From Shewanella aestuarii (GTDB taxonomy: Bacteria; Pseudomonadota; Gammaproteobacteria; Enterobacterales; Shewanellaceae), in NCBI RefSeq assembly GCF_011765625.1, contig NZ_CP050313.1, positions 430,501 through 494,500 of the forward strand: DNA of 64,000 nt. The letters run 5' to 3'. The translations under genes were made by a program, and so were the position numbers. Under the pieces are notes generated by a model. It was not told the origin of the DNA, searched no databases, and worked only from the letters and a program-made list of their open reading frames with translations. The stretch's first letter is position 1; each line of letters starts with the position of its first letter. This document shows, piece after piece, positions 49,699-64,000 of this stretch.

Positions 49699-51048
49699 AT
49701 GCAACCTTATGATCCGCTGATAAATATCAATCCCCAACATCAACCTTCGGCAAATAGCTATTGGGCTAGCACCATGCCAGTGCCACAAGCCAATCCGGCG
49801 TTAAAAGGTTGCCAGCAAACGGATGTGGCCATTATTGGTGGTGGCTACACAGGTTTATTAACCGCTTATTATTTGGCGACTGAATTTAATATTGATTGCC
49901 ATGTACTTGAAGCCAATCAAGTGGGCTTTGGTGCCAGCGCCCGTAATGCGGGGTTTGTGCTTAAAGGTTCTGGTCGTTTGGGCTATAGCGCCATGGCAAA
50001 GCGTTGGAATATCGATGTTGCTAAGGGGATTTACGCTGAGTTTACCGAGGCGGTTGCGCGAGTGGACGGTTTGATTAAGCAGCATCAAATTGATTGTGAT
50101 GTGCAAGAAACAGGCTACTTAAAAGTGGCTCATAACCCTAAAGCGTTAGCACAACTACAAAATGCTGCTGCGTTTATTCAACAACACTTTGGTGATGGTG
50201 CCGAGTTTATTGACCGTGAGACGTTTTGTGAGCAATACATGAATCATCATCAGGCTTATGGTGCATTAAGGTTAACTGATGGCTTTGGGATTAACCCATT
50301 AAAATTATTACTGGGTTATAAAGACATGGTGCAGCAAGCCAAGGTGTCGATATCAGAACAATCTTGCGTGCTTGAATGGCATCAACAGCAGGGCAAACAT
50401 CGCTTAATTACTGACTCAGGTGAGTTGCTTGCTAATCAGGTGATTATGGCGGGTAATGCTTATACGCCGAAACGATTTAATGCGGCAACCGATAACAAGT
50501 ACTTACCTATTTTAAGTAATGTGATTGTTACTGAGCCATTAACCCTTGATGAGCTGCAGCAAGCTGGCATTCATACGTCGCAAGTCACTATGGATACTCG
50601 CATTTTGAAATATTATTATCGGCTGTTGCCAGATAATCGTTTGCTATTTGGTGGTCGAGGCGCGGTGTGGGGCAAAGATGCGGCAAACCCTATTTATGGG
50701 CAACGACTCAAAATGGCCTTAGATAAATGCTTTCCGGCATTACAGCATAAAGCAATTGCCTATAACTGGACGGGCTGGATTGCGGCCTCGTTCGACGATA
50801 TGCCACATGTGTACAGCCAATATGGTGTGGGTTATAGCTTAGGCTATTGCGGTGCGGGTGTTTCTTTTAGTAGTCAGGCCGCTTATCGACTTGCCCAAAG
50901 TATGGCAGGCGTATCTCGGCCTAATTTACCTCTATATCAGCAGCCTCTACCGGCACAACCACTATCGATACTGCCCTTTGGCCAGTTAAAGCGCATAGGG
51001 CAGTGGGGGTATTATCATTACGGTTGGCTGAAAGATAAATTTAGTTAA
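49699..51048 (+). CDS. FAD-dependent oxidoreductase (DAO family)
   Basis: A 449-residue protein with an FAD-binding Rossmann motif VAIIGGGYTGLLTAYYLA (about 44-61), GFGASARNAGF (about 75) and the C-terminal DAO motif GYCGAGVSFSSQAAYRLA. This resembles gamma-glutamylputrescine oxidase-like or glycine/D-amino-acid oxidases; the substrate is not shown. It is the last gene of the GNAT operon and its stop codon overlaps that of the convergent antiporter gene. Confidence 0.87.
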   Translation: MQPYDPLININPQHQPSANSYWASTMPVPQANPALKGCQQTDVAIIGGGYTGLLTAYYLATEFNIDCHVLEANQVGFGASARNAGFVLKGSGRLGYSAMAKRWNIDVAKGIYAEFTEAVARVDGLIKQHQIDCDVQETGYLKVAHNPKALAQLQNAAAFIQQHFGDGAEFIDRETFCEQYMNHHQAYGALRLTDGFGINPLKLLLGYKDMVQQAKVSISEQSCVLEWHQQQGKHRLITDSGELLANQVIMAGNAYTPKRFNAATDNKYLPILSNVIVTEPLTLDELQQAGIHTSQVTMDTRILKYYYRLLPDNRLLFGGRGAVWGKDAANPIYGQRLKMALDKCFPALQHKAIAYNWTGWIAASFDDMPHVYSQYGVGYSLGYCGAGVSFSSQAAYRLAQSMAGVSRPNLPLYQQPLPAQPLSILPFGQLKRIGQWGYYHYGWLKDKFS

Positions 51049-52526
51049 CTGGCAACAAGGTGATCGTCTTTAACGGTTGCATTTAACGGTTCAATTTTTA
51101 TATTGAAGTATGCATAAGTCGCGCTAACTAGTGGGCATACAAGGTTAAAAAATGCATAAGGTAAGTAGGCAAAAGTTGCCACGCCCAGCGTACTGGCCAT
51201 AAACGCACCGCAGGTATTCCAAGGCACTAATGGGCTCGTGACGGTGGCAGAATCCTCTAAGGTGCGACTTAAATTAACTGCGGCTAGGTTTCTGTTGGTG
51301 TACTCCATTTTTAACATTCTGCCGGGCAAGACAATGGCAATATATTGATCACCTGTAATGATATTCGCCCCAATACACACGCCTAAAGTGGTGATGATTA
51401 AACTGCTAGTTGATGTTACTAAACTTAAAAGGCTTTCAAGCAAACGCCCAAGTAACCCTGTGACTTCCATTATGCCACCAAAAGCCATGGCACATAAAAT
51501 TAACCACACGGTCGTGACCATGCTGCTCATGCCACCTCGGCTTAATAGGTTATCGAGTACCGCATCCCCCGTACTAGCCACGTAGCCATCAAACATGGCA
51601 ATCCAAATCCCTTTTACCAGAGCGACTACATTAGGCAAACTTTCATCGTCAACATACGCTAACACGTTGTCAAACTGAAATAATGCTGCGCAAATTGCGC
51701 CTGCTAAGGTGCCAATTATAACGGTGGGAAACGCAGGCATTTTTTTGTGGGCTAAAAATAACACCACTAATAATGGCAACAATAGATGAGCGCCAGGTTG
51801 GTAGGTTTGTTCAAGCAATAGCAAGGTATGAGTTAATTGATTCGATACCGGTTCTACATTGCTATTAAAGCCGATTATCGTATAGGCAATAATGGCAATG
51901 ATAATGCTAGGAAAGGTGGTCCATGTCATATGCTTGATATGGGCAAAAATATCGCTACCGGCTACAGCAGGAGCTAGGTTTGTGGTATCAGACATGGGTG
52001 ACATTTTATCGCCAAAATAGGCGCCGCTAATAATAGCGCCAGCGGTAATGCTAGGGTTTAATTCCATTGCAGAGGCGATACCAATGAGCGCAATGCCAAT
52101 GGTGCCAGCCACTGTCCATGAACTGCCAATGCTTAAGGCTACAATGGCGCACAACACACATGAGGCGGCATAAAAATACTGTGGATTTAATATCTGCATG
52201 CCGTAATAAATCATAGTGGGTACTGTGCCCGCTAAAATCCATGTACCAATTAACGAGCCAACACTAAATAAGATCAGCAATGCGCCTGTGGCAATGCCGA
52301 TACTTTTCACTATGCCTCGTTCCATTTGATTCCAGCTAAAGCCATTTTTAAAACCAATAACCATTGCGATACAAGCTGCAAGTATTAAAGCGATTTGGTT
52401 TGCACCAGCAGAGCTGTCAGATGAAAACAGATAGACAGCCGAGGCTAGCATGATGATCAGCGAGAAAACGGGAATGAGTGCGTCAAGTAAGCTGGGTTTG
52501 AATGGAGTAGATGAGTGAGCAGACAT
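51045..52526 (-). CDS. Na+/H+ antiporter of the NhaC family
   Basis: A 493-residue inner-membrane protein with about 12 helices and NhaC-like motifs: SIGSSWTVAGTIGIALIG, FGDKMSPMSDTTNLAP and NLSRTLEDSATVTSPLVPWNTCG. NhaC-family carriers exchange sodium for protons, or a carboxylate or amine for ions (tyramine/malate-lactate antiporters are related). The substrate here is not known. The ATG is followed upstream by an AT-rich tandem repeat. Confidence 0.87.
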   Translation of the reverse strand: MSAHSSTPFKPSLLDALIPVFSLIIMLASAVYLFSSDSSAGANQIALILAACIAMVIGFKNGFSWNQMERGIVKSIGIATGALLILFSVGSLIGTWILAGTVPTMIYYGMQILNPQYFYAASCVLCAIVALSIGSSWTVAGTIGIALIGIASAMELNPSITAGAIISGAYFGDKMSPMSDTTNLAPAVAGSDIFAHIKHMTWTTFPSIIIAIIAYTIIGFNSNVEPVSNQLTHTLLLLEQTYQPGAHLLLPLLVVLFLAHKKMPAFPTVIIGTLAGAICAALFQFDNVLAYVDDESLPNVVALVKGIWIAMFDGYVASTGDAVLDNLLSRGGMSSMVTTVWLILCAMAFGGIMEVTGLLGRLLESLLSLVTSTSSLIITTLGVCIGANIITGDQYIAIVLPGRMLKMEYTNRNLAAVNLSRTLEDSATVTSPLVPWNTCGAFMASTLGVATFAYLPYAFFNLVCPLVSATYAYFNIKIEPLNATVKDDHLVAS

Positions 52527-52536
52527 TAAAATCCTT

Positions 52537-52582
52537 ATTATTTTTTTAATTATTTTTTTAATTATTTTTTTAATTATTTTTA
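52537..52582 (+). repeat. 12-bp AT-rich tandem repeat upstream of the nhaC-family gene
   Basis: Three perfect copies of ATTATTTTTTTA from 52537 to 52572 and a shortened fourth copy. It begins 10 bp before the ATG of the antiporter (minus) and so lies in its leader or promoter. Copy number could vary between strains. Confidence 0.75.
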
Positions 52583-53255
52583 ATCTGTCGATAGCACAAA
52601 ATAATCATTAATTGATTTGTTAAATAAATGTATCAAAGAGGAGCTATCCTGACATAAAGCAGATAACCAAGTCGAGCGATTTACCCTAAAGGCTTGGAGT
52701 GGATAAATAAACAGCAGATGGGGTTGTGATTAAGATTGCGTTATTAATAACTTTCTATTCAATTATTAATGTATTTTTTGATTTTTTAAGCTGTTTTTGG
52801 GGTGGTAGTTTGAATAAAATTTTTGCCTTTTTAGCGTAATGCCTCTCATTAAATTGATTGTTTCATCGTTTGTTTTATTGCTTGTTGGGTTGTTACTGCC
52901 TGTTGGTTGTGACTATTTTTATCAAGGCAATGAATAAACTGTGGATTTGATCCATCAAAAGCGATTATTGGTTTTGAGTTTTTAGCTTTAATCTAGCGTC
53001 ATTGAATTGATTAGCGATAAAAACGCAACACGATTATCGCACTTATGGTTGTTTTACATCATTTTCATAAAGTGAATCTTTACGCAAGTGAGCAATAGCC
53101 TCAAGGCTGACAAATTACCAGCAGATAAGATGAACTGATATTTTTCTGGGTAAAAACGCCCTGCGAAAATAACCATACCAATCACGAATACATTACGGAT
53201 TGCTAAGCGACTTTGAGTACAAGCTATCCTTTTTTACCGATTTTCATCTCCCTTT
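52583..53255. other. Geneless stretch between the antiporter and purD
   Basis: No frame longer than 60 codons is present on either strand. The sequence is AT-rich; the right end carries a plus-strand terminator (53256-53282) with no CDS in front of it. A small hairpin AGCC-TCAA-GGCT is near 53099. It may contain a small RNA or a decayed gene. Confidence 0.55.
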
Positions 53256-53282
53256 GCCGAGTTAATTACTCGGCTTTTTTTT
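53256..53282 (+). terminator. Orphan plus-strand intrinsic terminator
   Basis: GCCGAGT/ACTCGGC around TAATT, then eight T. Nearest plus-strand gene upstream is the FAD oxidoreductase, 2.2 kb away, across the antiporter gene, so another transcript probably ends here. Confidence 0.75.
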
Positions 53283-53398
53283 GGCTGAGATTCACCAGTT
53301 GAGTACGAAAGGATAAATCTACAGTGGTTAAAGAGGGGATGCGGATAATTTATCAAAGCTTAGCATGGAGTAACGATAAAACCTTGTCCACCTAAACT

Positions 53399-53435
53399 AA
53401 AAATCCCTGTGATGCAGGCATCACAGGGATTTTTT
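53399..53435. terminator. Terminator of purHD
   Basis: AAATCCCTGTGATG pairs perfectly with CATCACAGGGATTT (14 bp) around CAGG, with T-runs on both strands; about 20 bp past the purD stop. Confidence 0.93.
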
Positions 53436-53455
53436 ACGCAGAAAAAACTGACGAA

Positions 53456-54757
53456 TTAGGCTTTTTCTTGCTCACGCGCAATCGCACGGTAGGCAATATC
53501 GGTACGGAAGTACACATCATCCCAATGGATAGCGTCTACTAAAGCGTAAGCGGCTTTTTGCGCTTCTGTTACCGTATTACCTAAAGCCGTCGCACATAAT
53601 ACGCGGCCACCATTTGTTACTACATGACCGTCTTTCATGCTGGTGCCAGCATGGAATACTTTAGCCTTGTTATCGCCAAGCGATAAGCCGTCAATGACAT
53701 CATGTTTACGATAGGCATCAGGGTATCCACCGGCAGCCATCACAACACCAACCGCTGCACGAGAATCAAATTCAGCTGTTACTTTATCTAACTCACCACG
53801 GGTAGCGGCTAAACAAAGCTCAACGATATCTGATTGCAGACGCATCATAATGGGCTGAGTTTCAGGGTCACCGAAACGGCAATTGTACTCAAGCACTTTT
53901 GCGCTGCCATCAGGCGCAATCATTAATCCTGCATATAAAAAGCCAGTGTAAACGTTGCCTTCAGCAGCCATTCCGTCAACAGTTGGACGAATAACGTTAG
54001 CGATAGTCCAATCGTGAACGGCTTGAGTGACCACAGGCGCAGGTGAGTAAGCTCCCATGCCACCAGTGTTCGGGCCGTTATCGCCATTGTCGCGGGCTTT
54101 ATGGTCTTGGCTGGTGGCCATGGCTAGAATGTTTTTACCATCTACCATCACGATAAAGCTTGCTTCTTCGCCTTTTAAAAATTCTTCGATAACCACGCGC
54201 GAGCCGGCGTCACCAAATTTGTTGCCAGCTAACATGTCATCGATGGCCGCATCCGCTTCGGCTTGGTCTGCGGCAATAATTACCCCTTTACCAGCGGCTA
54301 AACCGTCAGCTTTAATGACAATAGGGAAGCCGGTCTTGGCAGTGACTTCAGCCACATAAGCTTTGGCTGGTGCTATCTCAGTAAAGTTTGAGTAAGCCGC
54401 TGTCGGAATATTATGACGGGCTAAAAAATCTTTGGTGAAGGCTTTAGATGATTCAAGCTGGGCAGCACCTTGTGTTGGGCCAAATATCGCTAAACCTGCT
54501 TCATTAAAGGCATTGACTACGCCCAATGATAATGGCACTTCAGGGCCGACTATGGTTAGTTCAATACTGTTGTCTTGTGCAAATGCGACTAACTGAGCAA
54601 TGGCTTCAACTTGAATGTTAACGTTTTCTAGTTTTGGCTCTAAGGCTGTGCCAGCATTGCCTGGTGCAACAAATACCGTGTCAACTTGTGGTGATTGTGC
54701 AGCTTTCCATGCTAGGGCGTGCTCACGTCCGCCACCGCCAATTACAAGTACTTTCAT
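53456..54757 (-). CDS. purD: Phosphoribosylamine-glycine ligase
   Basis: A 433-residue ATP-grasp enzyme: MKVLVIGGGGREHALAWK at the N-terminus, FGPTQGAAQLESSKAFTK, VIKADGLAAGKGVIIA (about 150), GEEASFIVMVDGK and NCRFGDPETQ. It joins glycine to phosphoribosylamine in purine synthesis. It follows purH, with a small hairpin between them. Confidence 0.97.
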   Translation of the reverse strand: MKVLVIGGGGREHALAWKAAQSPQVDTVFVAPGNAGTALEPKLENVNIQVEAIAQLVAFAQDNSIELTIVGPEVPLSLGVVNAFNEAGLAIFGPTQGAAQLESSKAFTKDFLARHNIPTAAYSNFTEIAPAKAYVAEVTAKTGFPIVIKADGLAAGKGVIIAADQAEADAAIDDMLAGNKFGDAGSRVVIEEFLKGEEASFIVMVDGKNILAMATSQDHKARDNGDNGPNTGGMGAYSPAPVVTQAVHDWTIANVIRPTVDGMAAEGNVYTGFLYAGLMIAPDGSAKVLEYNCRFGDPETQPIMMRLQSDIVELCLAATRGELDKVTAEFDSRAAVGVVMAAGGYPDAYRKHDVIDGLSLGDNKAKVFHAGTSMKDGHVVTNGGRVLCATALGNTVTEAQKAAYALVDAIHWDDVYFRTDIAYRAIAREQEKA

Positions 54758-54803
54758 TGGTTCACCCCTAAAAATATCAAAATTAATTATGTTCTTATAA
54801 CGA

Positions 54804-54828
54804 AAAAAGCAGCCCCATAAGGCTGCTT
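54804..54828 (-). terminator. Hairpin between purH and purD
   Basis: AAGCAGCC/GGCTGCTT around CCATAA with a T-run on the minus strand. It looks like a partial terminator inside the purHD operon. Confidence 0.65.
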
Positions 54829-54842
54829 AATTCAAAGGCTAT

Positions 54843-56432
54843 TTAATGGCGGAAATGACGCATACCAGTAAATACCATGGCAATGTTGTGTTCATCAGCA
54901 GCCGCGATGATTTCTTCATCACGGATTGAGCCGCCTGGCTGAATAATACAACTAATGCCGGCTGCCGCAGCTGCGTCAATACCATCACGGAATGGGAAGA
55001 AAGCATCCGATGCCATAACAGAACCTTCAACTACTAAACCTTCGTCAGCGGCTTTTATACCAGCCACTTTGGCCGAGTAAACGCGGCTCATTTGGCCTGC
55101 ACCCACGCCGATGGTCATGCCATCTTTGGCGTATACAATGGCGTTTGATTTAACAAACTTGGCCACTTTCCAGCAGAACATTAAGTCTTTTAATTGCTCA
55201 GCCGTTGGTTGACGTTTTGACACCACAGTGACATCAGCCATATCGACCATGCCTTGGTCACGATCTTGTACTAACATGCCACCATTGACACGCTTGTAAT
55301 CAAAGCTGCTGGTTTTTGCTTGCCACTGGCCACACTCTAATAAACGTACGTTTGCTTTAGCTGCAACGATGTCGCGGGCTGCTTGGCTTACTTTAGGGGC
55401 AATAATGACTTCAACAAATTGACGATCAACAATGGCTTTTGCTGTTTCAGCATCTAACTCTTGGTTAAAGGCAATGATGCCACCAAAGGCAGAGGTTGGG
55501 TCAGTTTTAAATGCGCGGTCATAGGCTTCTAAAATGTTGTTGCCCAACGCGACACCACAAGGGTTTGCGTGTTTAACAATCACACACGCAGGGCCGTCAA
55601 ATTCTTTAACGCACTCAAGGGCCGCGTCAGTGTCGGCGATATTGTTATAAGACAGTGCTTTACCTTGTAACTGAGTGGCACTGGCTACTGAAGCTTCGTC
55701 AATGTTGATATCAACATAAAACGCAGCTTTTTGATGGCTGTTTTCACCATAACGTAAGTCTTGTTTTTTGACTAACTGGGTGTTGTAAGTGCGTGGGAAC
55801 TGAGAATCTTCATGGCATTCGTCAGTGCTGTGTGCTGGCACCATAGTACCGAAGTAGTTAGCAATCATGCCATCATAAGCAGCAGTATGCTCAAAGGCAG
55901 CAATGGCTAAATCAAAGCGAGTCTCAAGGGTTGTGCTGCCGTTGTTTGCTTGCATTTCAGCAATTACGCGGCTGTAATCTTTAGCGTTCACCACAATGGT
56001 GGTGTCTTTGTGGTTTTTGGCGGTTGAGCGAACCATGGTTGGGCCGCCGATATCGATGTTTTCTACCGCGTCAGCTAAAGTGCAGCCTTCTTTTGCCACA
56101 GTTTGGGCGAATGGATATAGGTTAACGGCAACTAAATCGATAGGTTTGATGGCGTTTTGTTCCATCACTAACTCGTCAATACCGCGACGAGCCAAAATGC
56201 CACCGTGCACTTTAGGGTGCAAGGTCTTAACACGACCATCCATTATTTCAGGGTGACCTGTGTAGTCAGAAACTTCGGTAACAGGGATGTTGTTGTCGGC
56301 AAGCAATTTTGCTGTGCCACCAGTTGATAACAGTTCAACACCTTGAGCATGCAAAGCTTGAGCAAATTCAAGGATTCCAGTTTTATCTGAAACGCTAAGT
56401 AGGGCGCGACGAATTGGTCTGACAGTATTCAT
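54843..56432 (-). CDS. purH: Bifunctional AICAR formyltransferase/IMP cyclohydrolase
   Basis: From ATG 56432 the protein has 529 residues, the E. coli length; ten upstream in-frame codons are dropped. The N-terminal cyclohydrolase part has [25 protein letters not shown] and [11 protein letters not shown]; the C-terminal transformylase has [20 protein letters not shown] and [10 protein letters not shown]. It performs the last two steps to IMP. It is transcribed with purD and divergent from zntR. Confidence 0.97.
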
Positions 56433-56749
56433 GTAGGTACAGGGTCCACTATTTAAGTTCAAGGATCTTTCGCAAATCAGATTAAGCTAAGTTGCAATCT
56501 GCTTTGCCAAAGTCCCTCAAGTGTATTTCGCGGCTGTTATGTTACTTTTTATCTATGCCGATTCTGAGCGCGCGTATTTTAACGTAAAGCTCACTGTTTG
56601 CGTGTTTTTTCTGCGTGATTTCACAATATTGAAATCCGAACAAAGGCAGAGTTAATTTAGTCACAGAAAACCCTTGACCTTATATTAAACTCTAAGGTTT
56701 ATACTTGGGGTAATGTAATCCGTTTTTTCATTAATGTAAGGAGCCGATA
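56433..56749. other. 317-bp divergent control region of purH and zntR
   Basis: No gene. Near 56588-56603 the minus strand reads ACGCAAACAGTGAGCT, whose left half equals the PurR box consensus ACGCAAACGTTTGCGT; the right half is degenerate, so the PurR link is weak. The right end holds the MerR-type promoter of zntR. Confidence 0.45.
56674..56705 (+). promoter_or_regulatory. MerR/ZntR-type promoter and operator
   Basis: TTGACC (56674-56679) and TATACT (56700-56705) are separated by 20 bp, the long spacer typical of MerR-family metal promoters. The spacer contains the dyad ACCTTA-N10-TAAGGT (56677-56698), a fitting operator. It lies 45 bp before the zntR ATG, so the regulator controls itself and the permease. 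Confidence 0.75.
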
Positions 56750-57220
56750 ATGTATCGGATTGGTGAGCTGGCAGCGCTTTGTGACATTAAAGCCGATACG
56801 CTGCGCTTTTATGAAAAGCATGGTTTATTGTCGCCCTCTAGCCGCTCAGAGGCAGGATATCGCTTATATACCAAAGATGACGCGGCAAGATTGCGCTTCA
56901 TTTTACGCGCTAAAGCGGTGGGGTTTACCTTAAATGAAATTGCTGAATTACTGTCAATTGAATTAGACAAAGCCAATTGGGCTTGTGCTGATGTTAAAGG
57001 CTTGGTCGATAACAAGCTTGCGCAAGTTAAAATGAAGTTGGCCGAATTAACTCAGTTTTCAAATTCACTACAACGTTTATCTAATGCTTGCTGTGGCGGT
57101 CCTGACAGCGCTGAGCATTGTAGTATTTTAGAAGCGCTGGAATCAGAAGATAAACAACTGAAGACTAAAAAAGAAACGCACCATAAAGCACATCATCATT
57201 CATCAACTCATTCGTCTTAA
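56750..57220 (+). CDS. zntR: MerR-family zinc-responsive regulator ZntR
   Basis: A 156-residue MerR-type protein with N-terminal HTH (MYRIGELAALCDIKADTLRFYEKHGLL), a coiled dimer helix and the metal loop: Cys79-like WACADVKG and NACCGGPDSAEHCSILEAL, matching the zinc-binding Cys of ZntR (C114, C115, C124). The end KKETHHKAHHHSSTHSS is His-rich and is not in E. coli ZntR. AAGGAG precedes the ATG. It likely activates the promoter just upstream in high zinc or a similar metal. Confidence 0.85.
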   Translation: MYRIGELAALCDIKADTLRFYEKHGLLSPSSRSEAGYRLYTKDDAARLRFILRAKAVGFTLNEIAELLSIELDKANWACADVKGLVDNKLAQVKMKLAELTQFSNSLQRLSNACCGGPDSAEHCSILEALESEDKQLKTKKETHHKAHHHSSTHSS

Positions 57221-57292
57221 TCGTTGATTTGGTTATCTAACAGATGATCAAACAAGCACAGAATGCGTAATGAGTTGTTGAAGGAGAACACT

Positions 57293-58732
57293 ATGTTATT
57301 AGAACAGTTATTTGAAAATTTTATTCACCTATTTTTAGAATCGGCCCCGTGGTTACTACTTGGGTTGGTGTTAGCAGGCTTATTAAAAGTGTTTGTGCCA
57401 ATGGCATGGATGCAAAAGCAGTTGGGTGGCCATGGATTTAAAACCGTGCTCAAAGCGGCAATATTGGGCGCACCGCTTCCTTTGTGTTCTTGTGGTGTTA
57501 TTCCTGCAGCAATTGGCTTGCGTCGCGCCGGTGCATCAAAAGCGGCCACTACCTCATTTTTAGTTTCGACTCCTGAAACTGGGGTCGACTCGGTTACTGT
57601 ATCTTATGTGTTACTTGGGCCGTTTATGGCCATAGTAAGGCCAATTGCGGCGATAACCAGTGCGATTGTGGCAGGGCTTTTAGTGGGCCGTGATGATAAA
57701 GATGACGGGATTTCTGGCGGCGCGACTGGCCGTCATGATGACAGCACGGTTAACACTGACACCATTGAGTCTGTTAAGGCTAACACGGCGGCAAAGGCCT
57801 GTTGTTCAACTACAACCCAGCCAATAAACAAGCCTGAAAAACCAGCGAGTTGCTGTAACAGCAAAAAAGCTGCCAGTGACACTGTTTCGCAATTTCGCCC
57901 TGTGACTGAGCCATCGAGTAGCCTGTTAAAACCTTCGATGATGACAGCATCAACTTCAGCCACACCAAAACTTATGCCTGTTAACACGTCAAAAAGTCAA
58001 AGTTGCAGCAAAACCGCAAGCGAGGCAAAGCCAAAAACTAGCTGCTGCGCATCAACATCTATCGAAAGTGATATGCAACCCGTGGCTCAACAGGGAAGTA
58101 AAGGCGCGGCAAGTTGCTGTGCTTCAACCAAAGATATGGCGACCGAGTTAAAGCAGCAATCCATCATTAGCCGCATTGCTAGCGGTTTACATTATGGTGC
58201 GACCGATTTAGTACGTGATACCACCTTGTGGCTATTGGTTGGTTTGTTTTTTGCAGCGCTAGTACAAACTTATGTACCAGGAGATTTTTTAGCTAAGTGG
58301 GGCGATGGTGTTTTAGCTATGTTAGTGATGGTACTGGTATCTGTGCCTATGTATATCTGTGCTACCGCCTCAACACCTATTGCAGCGGGTTTGTTATTGG
58401 CAGGAGTATCACCAGGAGCGGTATTGGTGTTTATGATGGCAGGTCCAGCAACTAACATTGCGACCTTGGGTGTTGTGAGCAAAGAATTAGGTAAGCGCGC
58501 TTTATTGGGATATTTAGGCGGAGTGTTGGGCGTCGCTTTAATTGCCGGTATGCTAGTGAATTACCTAGTTGCTACCTTTGGTTTTGAGGTAATGCCACAA
58601 ATCGGCCATGAACATCAATTATTACCACAAGGGGTTGTTGCTATTTGTGGCATTATACTCGCGCTATTAATGGCCAAAGTGGTGTGGGATAAAATTCCAA
58701 AGCAGAAAAAGTCTGACTCTTGTTGTTCGTAA
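57293..58732 (+). CDS. Permease (ArsP_1/DUF318 type) with Cys-rich central linker
   Basis: From ATG 57293 (AAGGAG six bases upstream) the protein has 479 residues. The two membrane halves (about 10-135 and 310-470) have the family's duplicated pattern, with PLPLCSCGVIPAA and FLVSTPETGVDS in half one and CATASTPIAAGLLLAG and MAGPATNIATLG in half two. The linker (about 140-300) holds four Cys-Cys pairs, and the C-terminus ends SDSCCS. It lies 72 bp after zntR, on the same strand, so it likely exports or sequesters a soft metal or metalloid such as zinc. Confidence 0.82.
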   Translation: MLLEQLFENFIHLFLESAPWLLLGLVLAGLLKVFVPMAWMQKQLGGHGFKTVLKAAILGAPLPLCSCGVIPAAIGLRRAGASKAATTSFLVSTPETGVDSVTVSYVLLGPFMAIVRPIAAITSAIVAGLLVGRDDKDDGISGGATGRHDDSTVNTDTIESVKANTAAKACCSTTTQPINKPEKPASCCNSKKAASDTVSQFRPVTEPSSSLLKPSMMTASTSATPKLMPVNTSKSQSCSKTASEAKPKTSCCASTSIESDMQPVAQQGSKGAASCCASTKDMATELKQQSIISRIASGLHYGATDLVRDTTLWLLVGLFFAALVQTYVPGDFLAKWGDGVLAMLVMVLVSVPMYICATASTPIAAGLLLAGVSPGAVLVFMMAGPATNIATLGVVSKELGKRALLGYLGGVLGVALIAGMLVNYLVATFGFEVMPQIGHEHQLLPQGVVAICGIILALLMAKVVWDKIPKQKKSDSCCS

Positions 58733-58900
58733 TTTCATCTATTAACATTTTTTTGATTGATATCCTGTAATCCCACTGTTGCCCAGATGTTTTTATTTTG
58801 TTATCAAGCGGAGGGTGTTTGAAACAGCTTGTAACAAAAGCTGATCAAGATCTTACTTTTGATACAAAGTCATTAAGTTTAATAACTGTCAGTCTTGTAC

Positions 58901-58916
58901 TGTGACCAATATCTCA
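58901..58916. promoter_or_regulatory. CRP-like site upstream of the cytochrome gene
   Basis: TGTGA-CCAATA-TCTCA matches CRP TGTGA-N6-TCACA in the left arm fully and three of five in the right. It is about 90 bp before the start. In Shewanella, CRP controls several anaerobic cytochromes; this instance is weak. Confidence 0.3.
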
Positions 58917-59004
58917 ATGATTTAACCTATTCATCATTACTATTAAATTGCGTTTATACCTATAAAGTAGTAATTCGTCTAAAGGCGATAGTGGAGTGAT
59001 GATG

Positions 59005-60978
59005 ATGAAAATGAACCTATGCAAAATAGCGTTTCTCGTCGCAACTGCAATGGGGGTTGCAGCTTGCGGCAGTGATGGCAAAGATGGACAAGATGGCGCA
59101 CCGGGTATACCAGGCGAACCAGGTCCAGGACCTACACCACCAACAGTAGAAACCTCTACTGTTACTAATGTGGAAATGATCAATCATATGATTGAAGACG
59201 GTAAGGTGACTATTGAATTTGGTATTACCAATGAAGATGGTATCGCTATTACTGGCTTAAAAGATGCTTCTGTATATTTAGCGGCAATGACCGAGAATGG
59301 TATCCAACGTAGCCGTGATGGCAGTGTTGGTGGCAGTGCTACTGTTGGTGGTAATTCTCCGACAGAAGGTGCAAGTATTTCGTTACTGGATAACGGAAAC
59401 TACCAGTTTGTTGCTCCTATGGCAGCAGTTAAAGCTGATACAGAAGGTTTGATCCGATTACAAGTGGGTGGTGGCGACATTGCTCAATCACCATATTTAA
59501 TTATCGATAAGCCTGAAATGACTCATACAACAACGACAGAGACTTGTTATTCGTGTCACGTTGATTATGCAACCTCTGATCTGAGGCATTCTCGCTATGT
59601 TGCTTTAAATACAGATGGCCAAGTCGATTTTGTTGGTGGCTGTATGGTGTGTCATAACAACGTACCACGTGATATCGCTGAAGATGGCTCATCTTTGAAC
59701 ACGGGTGGTTACGCTAAAAACACCATGCAGAAATTGGGTCACGTCAATCACCAGAAATTTGAAAAAGATTTCACACCAGCAAATTGTTATACCTGTCATG
59801 CTGAACCTGTAATGAACACCAGTATTGCAGGCAATGGCTGTACTGATTGTCACACTGGTTCAAGCGCGACTAAAGTACAAAACTTTTATGCAGCCAATGA
59901 CGACTTTGATGTTCGCGCATTACATGCTAATGCAGCGGGTATCACTGAACGTAAAGAAATGCGTGAAAACTTCTACACTGAAACTTCAGCTGTTTACTTC
60001 GATGAAACGTTAGAATTTACTGATCACAAAGATGTATCTTGGGTTGGTGGTTACTGTGTTGACGTTAAATTGTTTGATAACTCTGGTGAAACTCCAGTGC
60101 AATTAAACATTGGTGAAATGTATGAAGCGCATACCATCACCTACGCTGGTGCTTATGTGAATGCGTACGACAACGAAACTGACTCAATTGTTGCCCGTGT
60201 CATCGGTCATGGTACTGAAGGTTATGTTGAGCGTGAAGATGGCACTCGTTCAGTTTGTTATGGACAGTTATTAAATGGTCCTGGTAGCGGCTATGAAAAC
60301 GCACATCTAACCACAAGTTCACGCGTAACTTTAGCTGATGCAAACTGGCAAGATGATGATGGTAAGTTTGGTGTTTCTTTGACTGGCTTCTCTGAAGTAG
60401 TCGACAATACTTTTACACCTATCGATAAGCCATTCTCACGTCGTCACAATGTTGATGCGCAAAGCTGTACAACTTGTCACACCAATGAAACTAACTACCA
60501 CAAAAATGGTAGTTACAACAACGGTGGTGAGTCTTGTATAGCTTGTCACAACAATGGTCAAGATCGTCGTGCAGGAAACTCAGCGCCAGGCTTTGGCCCT
60601 ATGGTTCACAGCATGCACTGGGGTGTAGGCAGTGGTAAAGGTACTGACGATGCAAATTCAGCAAGCGAACTAAATGCTGATAACTGCGTATCATGTCACT
60701 CTACTGGCATTAACTTAAATGCTATTCCAAACCGTTACATGCTATCTAGAGCATACAATGGCGGTGTCTCAGGTGTTATGACAAGTCCGATTATGGCTAA
60801 CTGTTTTGCTTGTCATGATGGCGCACAAGCCTTAAGCCACATGGAGCAAAATGGGGGTGAGCTTAACGTACCTAAAACGTTAGATTGGTTCACACAGCCT
60901 ACTGCTGAATCTTGTGCAACTTGTCATGCTGAAGGTCGTTCATTTGGTATCGAGAAGTATCATAACTTTGAGCGTTAA
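59005..60978 (+). CDS. OmcA/MtrC-family multihaem c-type cytochrome lipoprotein (nine CXXCH)
   Basis: From ATG 59005 (GGAG eight bases upstream) the protein has 657 residues, lipobox VAAC (Cys21) and a collagen-like Gly-x-x run (GKDGQDGAPGIPGEPGPGP) just after it, as in OmcA. Nine CXXCH haem sites are visible: CYSCH, CMVCH, CYTCH and CTDCH in the first haem domain (about 180-290), and CTTCH, CIACH, CVSCH, CFACH, CATCH in the second (about 480-640). MtrC-family proteins usually have ten (5+5), so one of the first set is missing. Between are two non-haem Cys. It is likely an outer-surface electron-transfer protein. Confidence 0.9.
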   Translation: MKMNLCKIAFLVATAMGVAACGSDGKDGQDGAPGIPGEPGPGPTPPTVETSTVTNVEMINHMIEDGKVTIEFGITNEDGIAITGLKDASVYLAAMTENGIQRSRDGSVGGSATVGGNSPTEGASISLLDNGNYQFVAPMAAVKADTEGLIRLQVGGGDIAQSPYLIIDKPEMTHTTTTETCYSCHVDYATSDLRHSRYVALNTDGQVDFVGGCMVCHNNVPRDIAEDGSSLNTGGYAKNTMQKLGHVNHQKFEKDFTPANCYTCHAEPVMNTSIAGNGCTDCHTGSSATKVQNFYAANDDFDVRALHANAAGITERKEMRENFYTETSAVYFDETLEFTDHKDVSWVGGYCVDVKLFDNSGETPVQLNIGEMYEAHTITYAGAYVNAYDNETDSIVARVIGHGTEGYVEREDGTRSVCYGQLLNGPGSGYENAHLTTSSRVTLADANWQDDDGKFGVSLTGFSEVVDNTFTPIDKPFSRRHNVDAQSCTTCHTNETNYHKNGSYNNGGESCIACHNNGQDRRAGNSAPGFGPMVHSMHWGVGSGKGTDDANSASELNADNCVSCHSTGINLNAIPNRYMLSRAYNGGVSGVMTSPIMANCFACHDGAQALSHMEQNGGELNVPKTLDWFTQPTAESCATCHAEGRSFGIEKYHNFER

Positions 60979-61039
60979 TGATTGATGATTGTCCATTATC
61001 ATTTTAGTTTGATAATGAGATAGCATGATTATAGCGAGA

Positions 61040-61067
61040 AAATGGGAGCCACTGGGCTCCCATTTTT
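61040..61067. terminator. Bidirectional terminator after the cytochrome gene
   Basis: AAATGGGAGCC pairs with GGCTCCCATTT around ACTG, with A/T runs on both sides; it lies between the convergent cytochrome and nuclease genes. Confidence 0.9.
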
Positions 61068-61102
61068 ATATGTGTTATCGATATTTGATCACAAGAGATG
61101 AA

Positions 61103-61897
61103 CTACTTTGCTAAAATTTGATTTAATTTTTCAGCTAAGCGTACACCCGCTTGTTGTACGCGTTTTTCAATCACAGGTTTATGAATAAACACATAGTTGA
61201 AGCGTAAGTCATCTTCACCATCACGATTTTTTTCTAATTGATAAGCCGAATCACGAAGTGCTTTTGACTCATCTGCCCACTGATAGTAATTTTTACCCTG
61301 CCAAGCTTTCACATCATCAGCATTAAAGTGGCTTAAAAAGCCAGTGTATTCGGTATAGCTTAATTCTTGATGATTAAGAATTTTACTATCCCATACTGAA
61401 TGTAGGTTTGTTTGTTCACCAAACCACTTCAGTTTAATAGCATTTCCGCCTTTATCGTGGCTGTGACCAACATGCAGCGGTTGATGAATATCACCCACAA
61501 AATGCACATAAAAGGCTAAAGCTTCGAGTTTTTTCGATGCACTCAGGTTAGGGTTTGCCAGTGCTCGTTCAAAGTCTTCAAGTTTTGCAATAATATCGCC
61601 ATCTTCACTGCGTTTAACTGTTTGCCAAGTTTCGTCATCTGCGATTGAAACATAATGCCAAGGCCCGGCATGATCCCAATTTTTGTCAGAACGAATTTCA
61701 TCTGCCCATGTGGATAACTGAGCAAGTGACTTGCCATTGGAAATGTTATCGATTGCTTGTTTAGCATCATTGGTTAAATTATTTTCTGCGATTTGACCAA
61801 TCACTCGATGCCCTAGAGGACCAAATGCTTGTGCTTGGTCTACCAGACCGCCATTTATGACCATGCCAAGACTAATGGCAAGTACCACTTTTTTCAT
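61103..61897 (-). CDS. S1/P1-type nuclease, exported
   Basis: A 264-residue protein with a signal peptide (cleavage after AQA). The mature start FGPLGHRVIGQIAE is the zinc-binding N-terminus (usually Trp1; Phe here). Downstream are DEIRSDKNWDHAGPWHYV, LAFYVHFVGDIHQPLHVGHSHDKGGN and HSVWDSKIL, the three-zinc site of S1/P1 nucleases. It probably cuts single-stranded nucleic acids in the periplasm or medium, making nucleotides for the 5'-nucleotidase type enzymes. It is monocistronic. Confidence 0.9.
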   Translation of the reverse strand: MKKVVLAISLGMVINGGLVDQAQAFGPLGHRVIGQIAENNLTNDAKQAIDNISNGKSLAQLSTWADEIRSDKNWDHAGPWHYVSIADDETWQTVKRSEDGDIIAKLEDFERALANPNLSASKKLEALAFYVHFVGDIHQPLHVGHSHDKGGNAIKLKWFGEQTNLHSVWDSKILNHQELSYTEYTGFLSHFNADDVKAWQGKNYYQWADESKALRDSAYQLEKNRDGEDDLRFNYVFIHKPVIEKRVQQAGVRLAEKLNQILAK

Positions 61898-62080
61898 GAA
61901 AACCCCGATTGTTTTTTAATTATTTATCGATATAAATGCCCGTTAATACAGGCATAGACTAGCGACTTTAGATGACCACAAGATGACACTGTATCAATAC
62001 TGTTACATCTTGGTGGATCATTTGTTGTTATTTTACGCTAATTTAGACATGAAATTGCAACAAATGTTCTATACAATTCT

Positions 62081-62117
62081 GCGCAATCAAGTTTTTACTC
62101 TAAAAATTTGATTGCGC
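62081..62117 (+). promoter_or_regulatory. Strong hairpin in the leader of the TonB-dependent receptor
   Basis: GCGCAATCAA (62081-62090) pairs with TTGATTGCGC (62108-62117), a G-U pair and TTTTT/AAAAA continue inward, leaving a five-base ACTCT loop. It lies 54 bases before the ATG, just after a TATACAAT -10-like box. Either an RNA stem in the leader or a protein operator. Confidence 0.6.
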
Positions 62118-62170
62118 TTGCCCTACAGCAGGATGCACTTAAAAATTATAATTTCAGGGGTCTGAATACA

Positions 62171-64000
62171 ATGTTAAATAATAAAATCAGTCGCTTAGCG
62201 CTAGCGACTTGCTTTGCTATGGGTGTTAGTTTTCCCGCCATGGCAGCTGATACCGCATCAAATATCCGTGGTCAAATTGTTGGTCCACAAGGAAATGCTG
62301 TTACAGATGCAAAAATTACCATTATGCATGAACCAACAGGCACTGTGACCGAGGTGACAGTGGGAGCTAATGGCGAGTTTTTTGCCAGAGGCTTACGTGT
62401 TGGTGGTCCTTACATTATCAAAATTGATTCAGATGAATTTGCTGATGATGTTGAGCAAAACTTATTTTTAAATGTAGGTGAAACCTTCCGTTTTAACCGA
62501 ACTTTACAACTTGCGGCAGACATGGAACGTATCGGCGTTGTTGGTAGTGCCAGTTATTACCGTAGTGCTGGTGGCGACAGTGAATTTGGCGCGAAAGAAA
62601 TTGCTAACGCACCAGGTGTTAGCCGCGACTTGAAAGATGTATTACGCCAAAATCCAATGGCGGTTGTAGGTACTGATGGTATCTCAATGAGCGTTGCGGG
62701 TATGAACCCACGTTTTAATACCTTTGTGGTTGATGGTATTTCGCAAAACGATGACTTTGGTCTTAACTCAAATGGTTATCCAACCCAGCGTTCACCTATT
62801 TCATTAGATGCAGTTGAAAGTGTGGCATTAAATGTGTCGCCTTATACGGCCCGTAATGGCGGCTTTACTGGCGCACAAATCAATGCGGTAACCAAATCGG
62901 GTACTAATGATGTATCAGGCAGTGTGTTTTGGGAAACTACTAACGACAGCATGGCAGGTAAAACTCAGCCAGATGATGAAGGTAAAAGAATAAATCAAGA
63001 TTTTGAAGAAACCACATTTGGTGGCACGATTGGTTTTCCACTGATTAAAGACACCTTGTTCTTCTTTGGATCTTATGAAAACTTTGACTCACCCAAGTCT
63101 GCTGCTTATGGTCCTGCTGGTAGTGGATTTGCTAAAAGCTCAGATATTACCTTAGAAGAATTTACCAAAATTCAAAACATCGCTTCTAGCGTATATGGGT
63201 TAGATACCATTGGTACGTTTGACGCAAACCCGCAAGAAGAAGATGAGAAAATCTTAGCTAAAGTTGACTGGAATATTAACGATCAACATCGTGCAAGTTT
63301 CACCTATCAATATACCTTAGGTAACTTAACCAACAATATTTCAGAAAACACTTCACAGTTAACTATGTCGAGTGCTTGGTATAACAAAGAAGAAAAGTTA
63401 GAAACCTATGCCGCTAACTTATACAGTGATTGGACCGATGATTTCAGCACTGAAATTAAAGTGGCTTACAAAGACACCACCTCTAATTCAAACACCATTG
63501 ACGATTTAGGCATTGGTAGTGTGAGCATTCAGACCTATGATCGCTCGGGTGACAGAGTGGTTTTTGGTACCGATAAGTCTCGCCAAGCGAATAAGTTAAA
63601 CAACCAAAACTTAGAAGTACGTTTTGTGGGTGATTACTATTTAGGTGACCACAATATTGGCTTTGGTTTGCAATACAATAATGTTGAAGTGTTTAACTTA
63701 TTTGCTCAAAACGTCATTGGTAACTGGTCATTTAACAGCATTGAAGACTTTGAAAATGGTGTGGTTGATCAATTCTTTTATGCTAATGCCAAATCGGGTA
63801 ACCCGAACGATGTGGGCGCAAGCTTTAACATGGATACCTTAGCGTTATTTGTTGAAGATTCTTGGGATATCACCGCTGATTTAGAATTAACGTTTGGTAT
63901 GCGTTATGAAACCATCAGCATGTCAGATTCGCCATCATTAAATCAAAACTTTGTTGACCGTTACGGCTTTGCTAATAACAAAACTATGGATGGTAAAGAC
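62171..64000 (+). CDS. TonB-dependent outer-membrane receptor with carboxypeptidase-regulatory-like domain (3' end lies beyond the window)
   Basis: An open frame of 610 codons with a signal peptide (cleavage near AMA-ADT), a carboxypeptidase-regulatory-like N-terminal domain (NIRGQIVGPQGNAVTDAKITI, about 28-95), then a plug domain (GVSRDLKDVLRQNPMAV...SVAGMNPRFNTFVVDG) and the start of the beta-barrel. AGGGG precedes the ATG at about ten bases. It imports a large substrate such as a siderophore, sugar or peptide; none is evident. A hairpin precedes it. Confidence 0.9.
   Translation, partial: MLNNKISRLALATCFAMGVSFPAMAADTASNIRGQIVGPQGNAVTDAKITIMHEPTGTVTEVTVGANGEFFARGLRVGGPYIIKIDSDEFADDVEQNLFLNVGETFRFNRTLQLAADMERIGVVGSASYYRSAGGDSEFGAKEIANAPGVSRDLKDVLRQNPMAVVGTDGISMSVAGMNPRFNTFVVDGISQNDDFGLNSNGYPTQRSPISLDAVESVALNVSPYTARNGGFTGAQINAVTKSGTNDVSGSVFWETTNDSMAGKTQPDDEGKRINQDFEETTFGGTIGFPLIKDTLFFFGSYENFDSPKSAAYGPAGSGFAKSSDITLEEFTKIQNIASSVYGLDTIGTFDANPQEEDEKILAKVDWNINDQHRASFTYQYTLGNLTNNISENTSQLTMSSAWYNKEEKLETYAANLYSDWTDDFSTEIKVAYKDTTSNSNTIDDLGIGSVSIQTYDRSGDRVVFGTDKSRQANKLNNQNLEVRFVGDYYLGDHNIGFGLQYNNVEVFNLFAQNVIGNWSFNSIEDFENGVVDQFFYANAKSGNPNDVGASFNMDTLALFVEDSWDITADLELTFGMRYETISMSDSPSLNQNFVDRYGFANNKTMDGKD

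Follow-up and report, generated by a model that had tools for sequence, protein, structure and literature searches.

The zntR-permease locus of Shewanella aestuarii considered here lies within a 64,000-nucleotide stretch of its genome (NZ_CP050313.1, positions 430,501 to 494,500; the whole of this stretch is called the window, and coordinates are counted from its first letter). The Escherichia coli counterpart of its promoter has a 20-bp spacer with a dyad, and ArsP, which carries a PF03773 domain, is presumably an organoarsenical permease. The nearest described parallel is the SO_0443/SO_0444 pair of Shewanella oneidensis MR-1. As far as the available excerpts of the 2011 study go (PMC3219624), SO_0444 is needed under ZnSO4 or CuCl2 stress and shares an operon with the ZntR-like gene SO_0443, and a table gives complementation as evidence for SO_0444. 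Excerpts of other papers report upregulation of zntR and SO_0444 in CdS/MR-1 (PMC12366296) and a Nitratiruptor member of the family that is induced by Cd and Cu and clustered with a cytochrome, TolC and a winged-helix regulator (PMC10092412). For the regulator, the available part of PMC3223726 compares 16 Shewanella genomes, of which every one is listed with ZntR and two lack CueR, and describes the Shewanella ZntR motif as moderately different from the known ZntR motif.

The window permease is a member of the SO_0444 family

We consider it very likely that the window unit is a ZntR-regulated two-gene operon for the efflux of cytoplasmic Cu and Zn, and probably Cd, akin to SO_0443-SO_0444 of MR-1. 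The permease scores 520.2 bits against NF033936, the curated NCBIfam equivalog model for the SO_0444 family Cu/Zn efflux transporter (cut-off 300), over model positions 1-350 of 351, and so passes the membership cut-off of that model. It also matches PF03773 (ArsP_1) at 155.9 bits (cut-off 32.3), in agreement with the original prediction of an ArsP/DUF318-type permease downstream of zntR, and it reaches 163.2 bits, below the cut-off of 325, against NF040736 (efflux transporter SaoE). Among the 120 proteins listed as closest, many are named SO_0444 family Cu/Zn efflux transporter, the others being called permease or left unnamed. The same prediction had presented the unit as one that could not be matched to a described system. 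That candidate, a new and undescribed system, is rejected on the strength of the equivalog match and the Zn and Cu mutant phenotype in the available account of MR-1: the unit is a known and largely ordinary system, and belongs to a named, phenotyped family that is kept genus-wide. The underlying idea of a compact ZntR-controlled unit for metal detection and export is well supported; what the sequences show here is family identity, promoter and operon layout, and conservation of the unit across the genus and of its cysteines. For arsenite and lead as substrates we found no support; the literature, so far as it was available, points to Zn and Cu, with induction or upregulation in the case of Cd.

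The features of the locus, in order along the window, are as follows.
56674-56705, + strand: ZntR-type promoter TTGACC-N20-TATACT (from the sequence, with the same layout in Shewanella loci)
56677-56698, + strand: 22-bp dyad ACCTT-N12-AAGGT, likely ZntR operator (from the sequence)
56750-57220, + strand: zntR, Zn(II)-responsive MerR-family regulator of 156 residues with a variable His-rich C-terminal tail (NF007069, TIGR02043)
57281-57286, + strand: AAGGAG, likely ribosome-binding site of the permease gene (from the sequence)
57293-58732, + strand: SO_0444-family Cu/Zn efflux permease with a PF03773 core, 479 residues from the probable start (NF033936, PF03773)
57485-57493, + strand: codons of C65-S66-C67, invariant, at the predicted helix break of the first half (alignment A1; break at residues 60-65 of the model)
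57692-58165, + strand: Cys-Cys-rich linker, about residues 134-291, with four Cys-Cys pairs (structure model, conservation of the pairs)
58115-58120, + strand: codons of C275-C276, the linker pair that near and distant relatives alike retain (alignment A1)
58358-58360, + strand: codon of C356 (YICAT), which never varies in A1 and lies at the break in a helix of the second half (alignment A1, structure model)
58721-58726, + strand: codons of C477-C478, the C-terminal pair (Shewanella loci)

The listed open reading frame of the permease begins at 57263 and its stop codon ends at 58732. The start is probably the ATG at 57293 rather than 57263, because AAGGAG sits at 57281-57286. With this start, 72 nt separate the gene from zntR on the same strand, and nothing resembling a terminator or a promoter was listed there by our scan.

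Conservation within the permease was read from an alignment, A1, of 66 sequences, comprising the window permease and 65 proteins chosen from 239 others listed (26 near and 39 distant rows). Five cysteines are invariant in it: C65, C67, C275, C276 and C356. A selenoprotein member of the family with a UxC motif is described in the accessible portion of PMC13188914, and this motif would correspond to C65-S-C67 of the window permease. The structure model suggests a membrane protein of two halves and bears some resemblance to elevator-type secondary transporters, a likeness that is suggestive only; ArsB, NaS1, INDY and CNT are folds that we take to belong to this class. A Foldseek search with the model gave no match at E ≤ 0.001, and when solved structures were searched by sequence, none related to the permease came up at E up to 0.001.

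The regulator and its promoter

The window ZntR scores 226.5 bits against NF007069 (cut-off 143) and 215.6 bits against TIGR02043 (cut-off 167.95), both of which are equivalog models. It carries C79, C114, C115 and C124, presumably metal-ligand positions, and all four are present in each of the 105 ZntR sequences checked. His119 of E. coli ZntR, which we take to be a Zn ligand, is replaced by Asp in the window protein; across the 105 sequences this position is Glu in 72, Asp in 17, Arg in 15 and Ala in one, and the assignment to the ZntR family is based on the curated models and not on this residue. His123 is found in 104 of the 105, the window ZntR included. Beyond the 140 residues aligned to NF007069 the protein has a C-terminal extension of 16 residues. 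The His-rich tail that had been singled out in the original prediction is real, with six His among the final 28 residues, and is not a special feature of this protein, because tail His content ranges from 0 to 12 over the same 105 sequences, the window included; we have rejected it as a distinguishing trait.

The promoter upstream of zntR has TTGACC (56674-56679) and TATACT (56700-56705) separated by 20 bp, as had been proposed. Of 111 Shewanella loci, with the window counted among them, 107 have a pair with this spacing and four lack it; a first pattern found it in 93 of 105 loci, and a slightly wider one added eight of the 12 misses and six further loci. Because of this recurrence we conclude, from sequence conservation, that the promoter is not a chance occurrence. 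A sigma-70 scan does not list it, since that scan accepts only spacers of 16-18 bp. The mismatch-free operator box occurs once in the S. aestuarii genome, where the next best sites have two mismatches; allowing up to three mismatches gives 87 sites, compared with 50 for a reversed control pattern.

Distribution and neighbourhood

NF033936 is matched in all 117 Shewanella genomes sampled from the larger group, in 115 of them over the cut-off. We read 111 loci from these genomes, the window counted; left out were G049, G055, G078 and G097, where changes of frame, stops or contig ends break up the match, as well as G015 and G074. In G097, G055 and G049 the permease match is divided between frames or carries stops, and G097 has two identical-scoring places. 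A ZntR-type gene lies adjacent, upstream and on the same strand in every one of the 111 loci (105 identified by motif and six by reading frames), with gaps to the permease of -22 to 93 nt if the start is taken 64 residues before the CSC motif. The zntR-permease unit is thus standard in the genus.

Among 57 named loci, two of which are pieces of one genome, ZntR is present in 56 and purH lies alongside on the other strand in 53; besides Shewanella they include Psychromonas, Enterovibrio and Paraferrimonas. At the level of the class, 25 of 274 genomes, our own counted, have a match at E up to 1e-60. In the 26 class-level loci L127-L152, simple motifs, which miss many regulators, flagged same-strand genes that are MerR-like in L127 and ArsR-like in L136, L150, L151 and L152, three of these four loci being from one genome; the L150 counts were not used in the class-level survey. 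By these sequence comparisons, association with ZntR is characteristic of Shewanella and its near kin and is not established for the whole family.

The permease gene is directly followed on its own strand by a gene for a multihaem cytochrome (58996-60978), which contains an MtrC/MtrF-type domain and whose start looks, by eye, like that of a lipoprotein. No tRNA was found in window positions 50000-64000.

The Cys-Cys linker and the C-terminal pair

As predicted, the permease has five Cys-Cys pairs, four of them in the linker (170-171, 187-188, 251-252 and 275-276) and one at the C-terminus (477-478). Linker residues 141-274 are almost all predicted to be disordered, with a predicted local distance difference test score below 50 over residues 141-190, 192-216 and 218-274. 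From the distribution of charge, the linker and the C-terminal Cys-Cys tail are probably on the cytoplasmic side. The linker measures 81-202 residues in the 111 loci (median 150; a stretch of N inflates one further value to 408) and contains three, four, five, six or seven pairs in 6, 12, 44, 46 and 3 loci, respectively, for a total of 583, of which 505 are preceded by Ser. A C-terminal pair lies within the final eight residues in 110 of the 111 loci; in the 39 distant rows of A1 no Cys occupies these columns, and 38 rows have gaps there. Within the linker, position 238 has Cys in every one of the 26 near rows and in 35 of the 39 distant ones; positions 170 and 171 each have it in 25 of 26 near rows and in 22 and 25, respectively, of the 39 distant ones. 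Our searches of an open-access library gave neither a further description of such a unit nor a published account of a role for the linker.

Other metal systems of the genome

The S. aestuarii genome (three contigs, completeness 100) contains one P1B-ATPase over the cut-off, at C1:1937049-1938692. Its same-strand neighbours, as we read their labels, are a membrane protein, a FixH-like protein and an Fnr-like regulator, and these neighbours suggest that it is of the CcoI/FixI type, which serves oxidase assembly, and is neither a ZntA nor a CopA. Among profile matches over the cut-off we found no ATPase of the ZntA or CopA type, and no protein in the genome is over the cut-off for CueR, the best match to that model being the window ZntR. 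Two cation diffusion facilitators are present, and export of metal from the cytoplasm may rest on them and the window permease. Sixteen of the 117 genus genomes, among them our own and one that is only 52% complete, have a best P1B match of E 1e-160 or weaker, the range in which our CcoI-like protein falls; the P1B match of our own genome is the only one read individually.

The two matches over the cut-off to CzcA-type resistance-nodulation-division proteins, at C2:102380-105507 and C1:3835831-3838961, each consist of two adjoining pieces with an open frame apiece, a picture that pseudogenes or sequencing errors would give. A second PF03773 permease, L001 (C1:3797327-3798229), adjoins a 76-residue open reading frame with a CxxC motif that by eye is thioredoxin-like.

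Proposed mechanism and alternative readings

In the mechanism we propose, ZntR would sit on the 20-bp-spacer promoter and, when metal-bound, remodel it, so that zntR and the permease gene would be cotranscribed, as the habits of the MerR family and the promoter layout suggest. The permease would then export Cu and Zn through its membrane core, where metal is probably bound at C65-S-C67 and C356, which are placed at corresponding helix breaks of the two halves; the disordered linker and the C-terminal Cys-Cys tail would probably capture or buffer metal or pass it to the core.

The PF03773 (ArsP_1) domain might suggest that the permease is mainly an arsenical exporter like ArsP, with the link to Cu and Zn secondary. 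The match to a Cu/Zn equivalog and the ZntR neighbour in 111 of 111 loci speak against this, as do the Zn and Cu stress phenotypes in the available account of SO_0444, and the arsenical role, at a guess, could be filled by L001. We regard an arsenical main role as very improbable and have rejected it.

The linker admits a wider choice. It is low in complexity, rich in Ser, Ala and Lys and weakly conserved beyond its cysteines, and at least four class-level relatives (L135, L136, L139 and L143) have no Cys-Cys pair at all, which argues against any strict need for the pairs and might lead one to see them as largely functionless drift. Against this, at least three pairs are present in every one of the 111 loci, and the 583 observed compare with a mean of 75 and a maximum of 96 in 100 composition-preserving shuffle rounds, where the loci are related sequences and not 111 independent events; for the window linker itself, 20,000 shuffles gave a mean of 0.41 pairs and none reached four. 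Drift is thus hardly credible. A more serious competitor, to which we allow a fair-sized but minority chance, is that the linker acts as a metallothionein-like store or as a gating sensor for the permease and not as a delivery arm, which would leave the identity of the exporter unchanged. The predicted disorder is in its favour, as is the retention of three to seven pairs while linker length varies so widely. At 187-188 and 251-252, 39 and 37 of the 39 distant rows, respectively, have gaps, and a core permease can therefore do without these pairs. By contrast, C275-C276, beside the second half, is Cys in all 26 near and all 39 distant rows, which fits a fixed part in handing over metal.

With ZntA, CopA and CueR not found, a further and rather doubtful step beyond the Cu/Zn efflux operon would be that ZntR is the main cytoplasmic switch for both Cu and Zn, and that its chief or only target is an exporter of the secondary type with a disordered Cys-Cys arm acting as a built-in metallochaperone or buffer. 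If true, metal buffering and export would be coupled in one protein. The remaining interest of the locus lies in the conserved Cys-Cys linker and in the possibility that this strain depends on the zntR-permease unit.

Comparison with known systems

The window unit shares with SO_0443/SO_0444 its family, by the curated equivalog score, and the ZntR-permease gene order given in the accessible text on MR-1; this comparison is at the level of family score and gene order, and among relatives both linker length and the number of Cys-Cys pairs vary. The permease has the PF03773 domain in common with ArsP, but differs from it in its curated subfamily, its ZntR neighbour and its long linker rich in Cys-Cys pairs, the Cu and Zn phenotype in the excerpts available belonging to SO_0444. 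SaoE is covered by a related permease model, under whose cut-off the window protein falls. With E. coli ZntR/ZntA the locus shares a ZntR-type regulator with the same four cysteines and a 20-bp-spacer promoter with a dyad, whereas the neighbouring gene encodes a PF03773 permease and not a P-type ATPase, and the regulator has Asp119, His123 and its C-terminal extension. There is a hint that some Shewanella depend on this permease for what ZntA and CopA do in E. coli. P1B-type ATPases have folded metal-binding domains; if the proposal for the linker is true, the window permease would instead have a tethered, disordered Cys-Cys arm of variable length.
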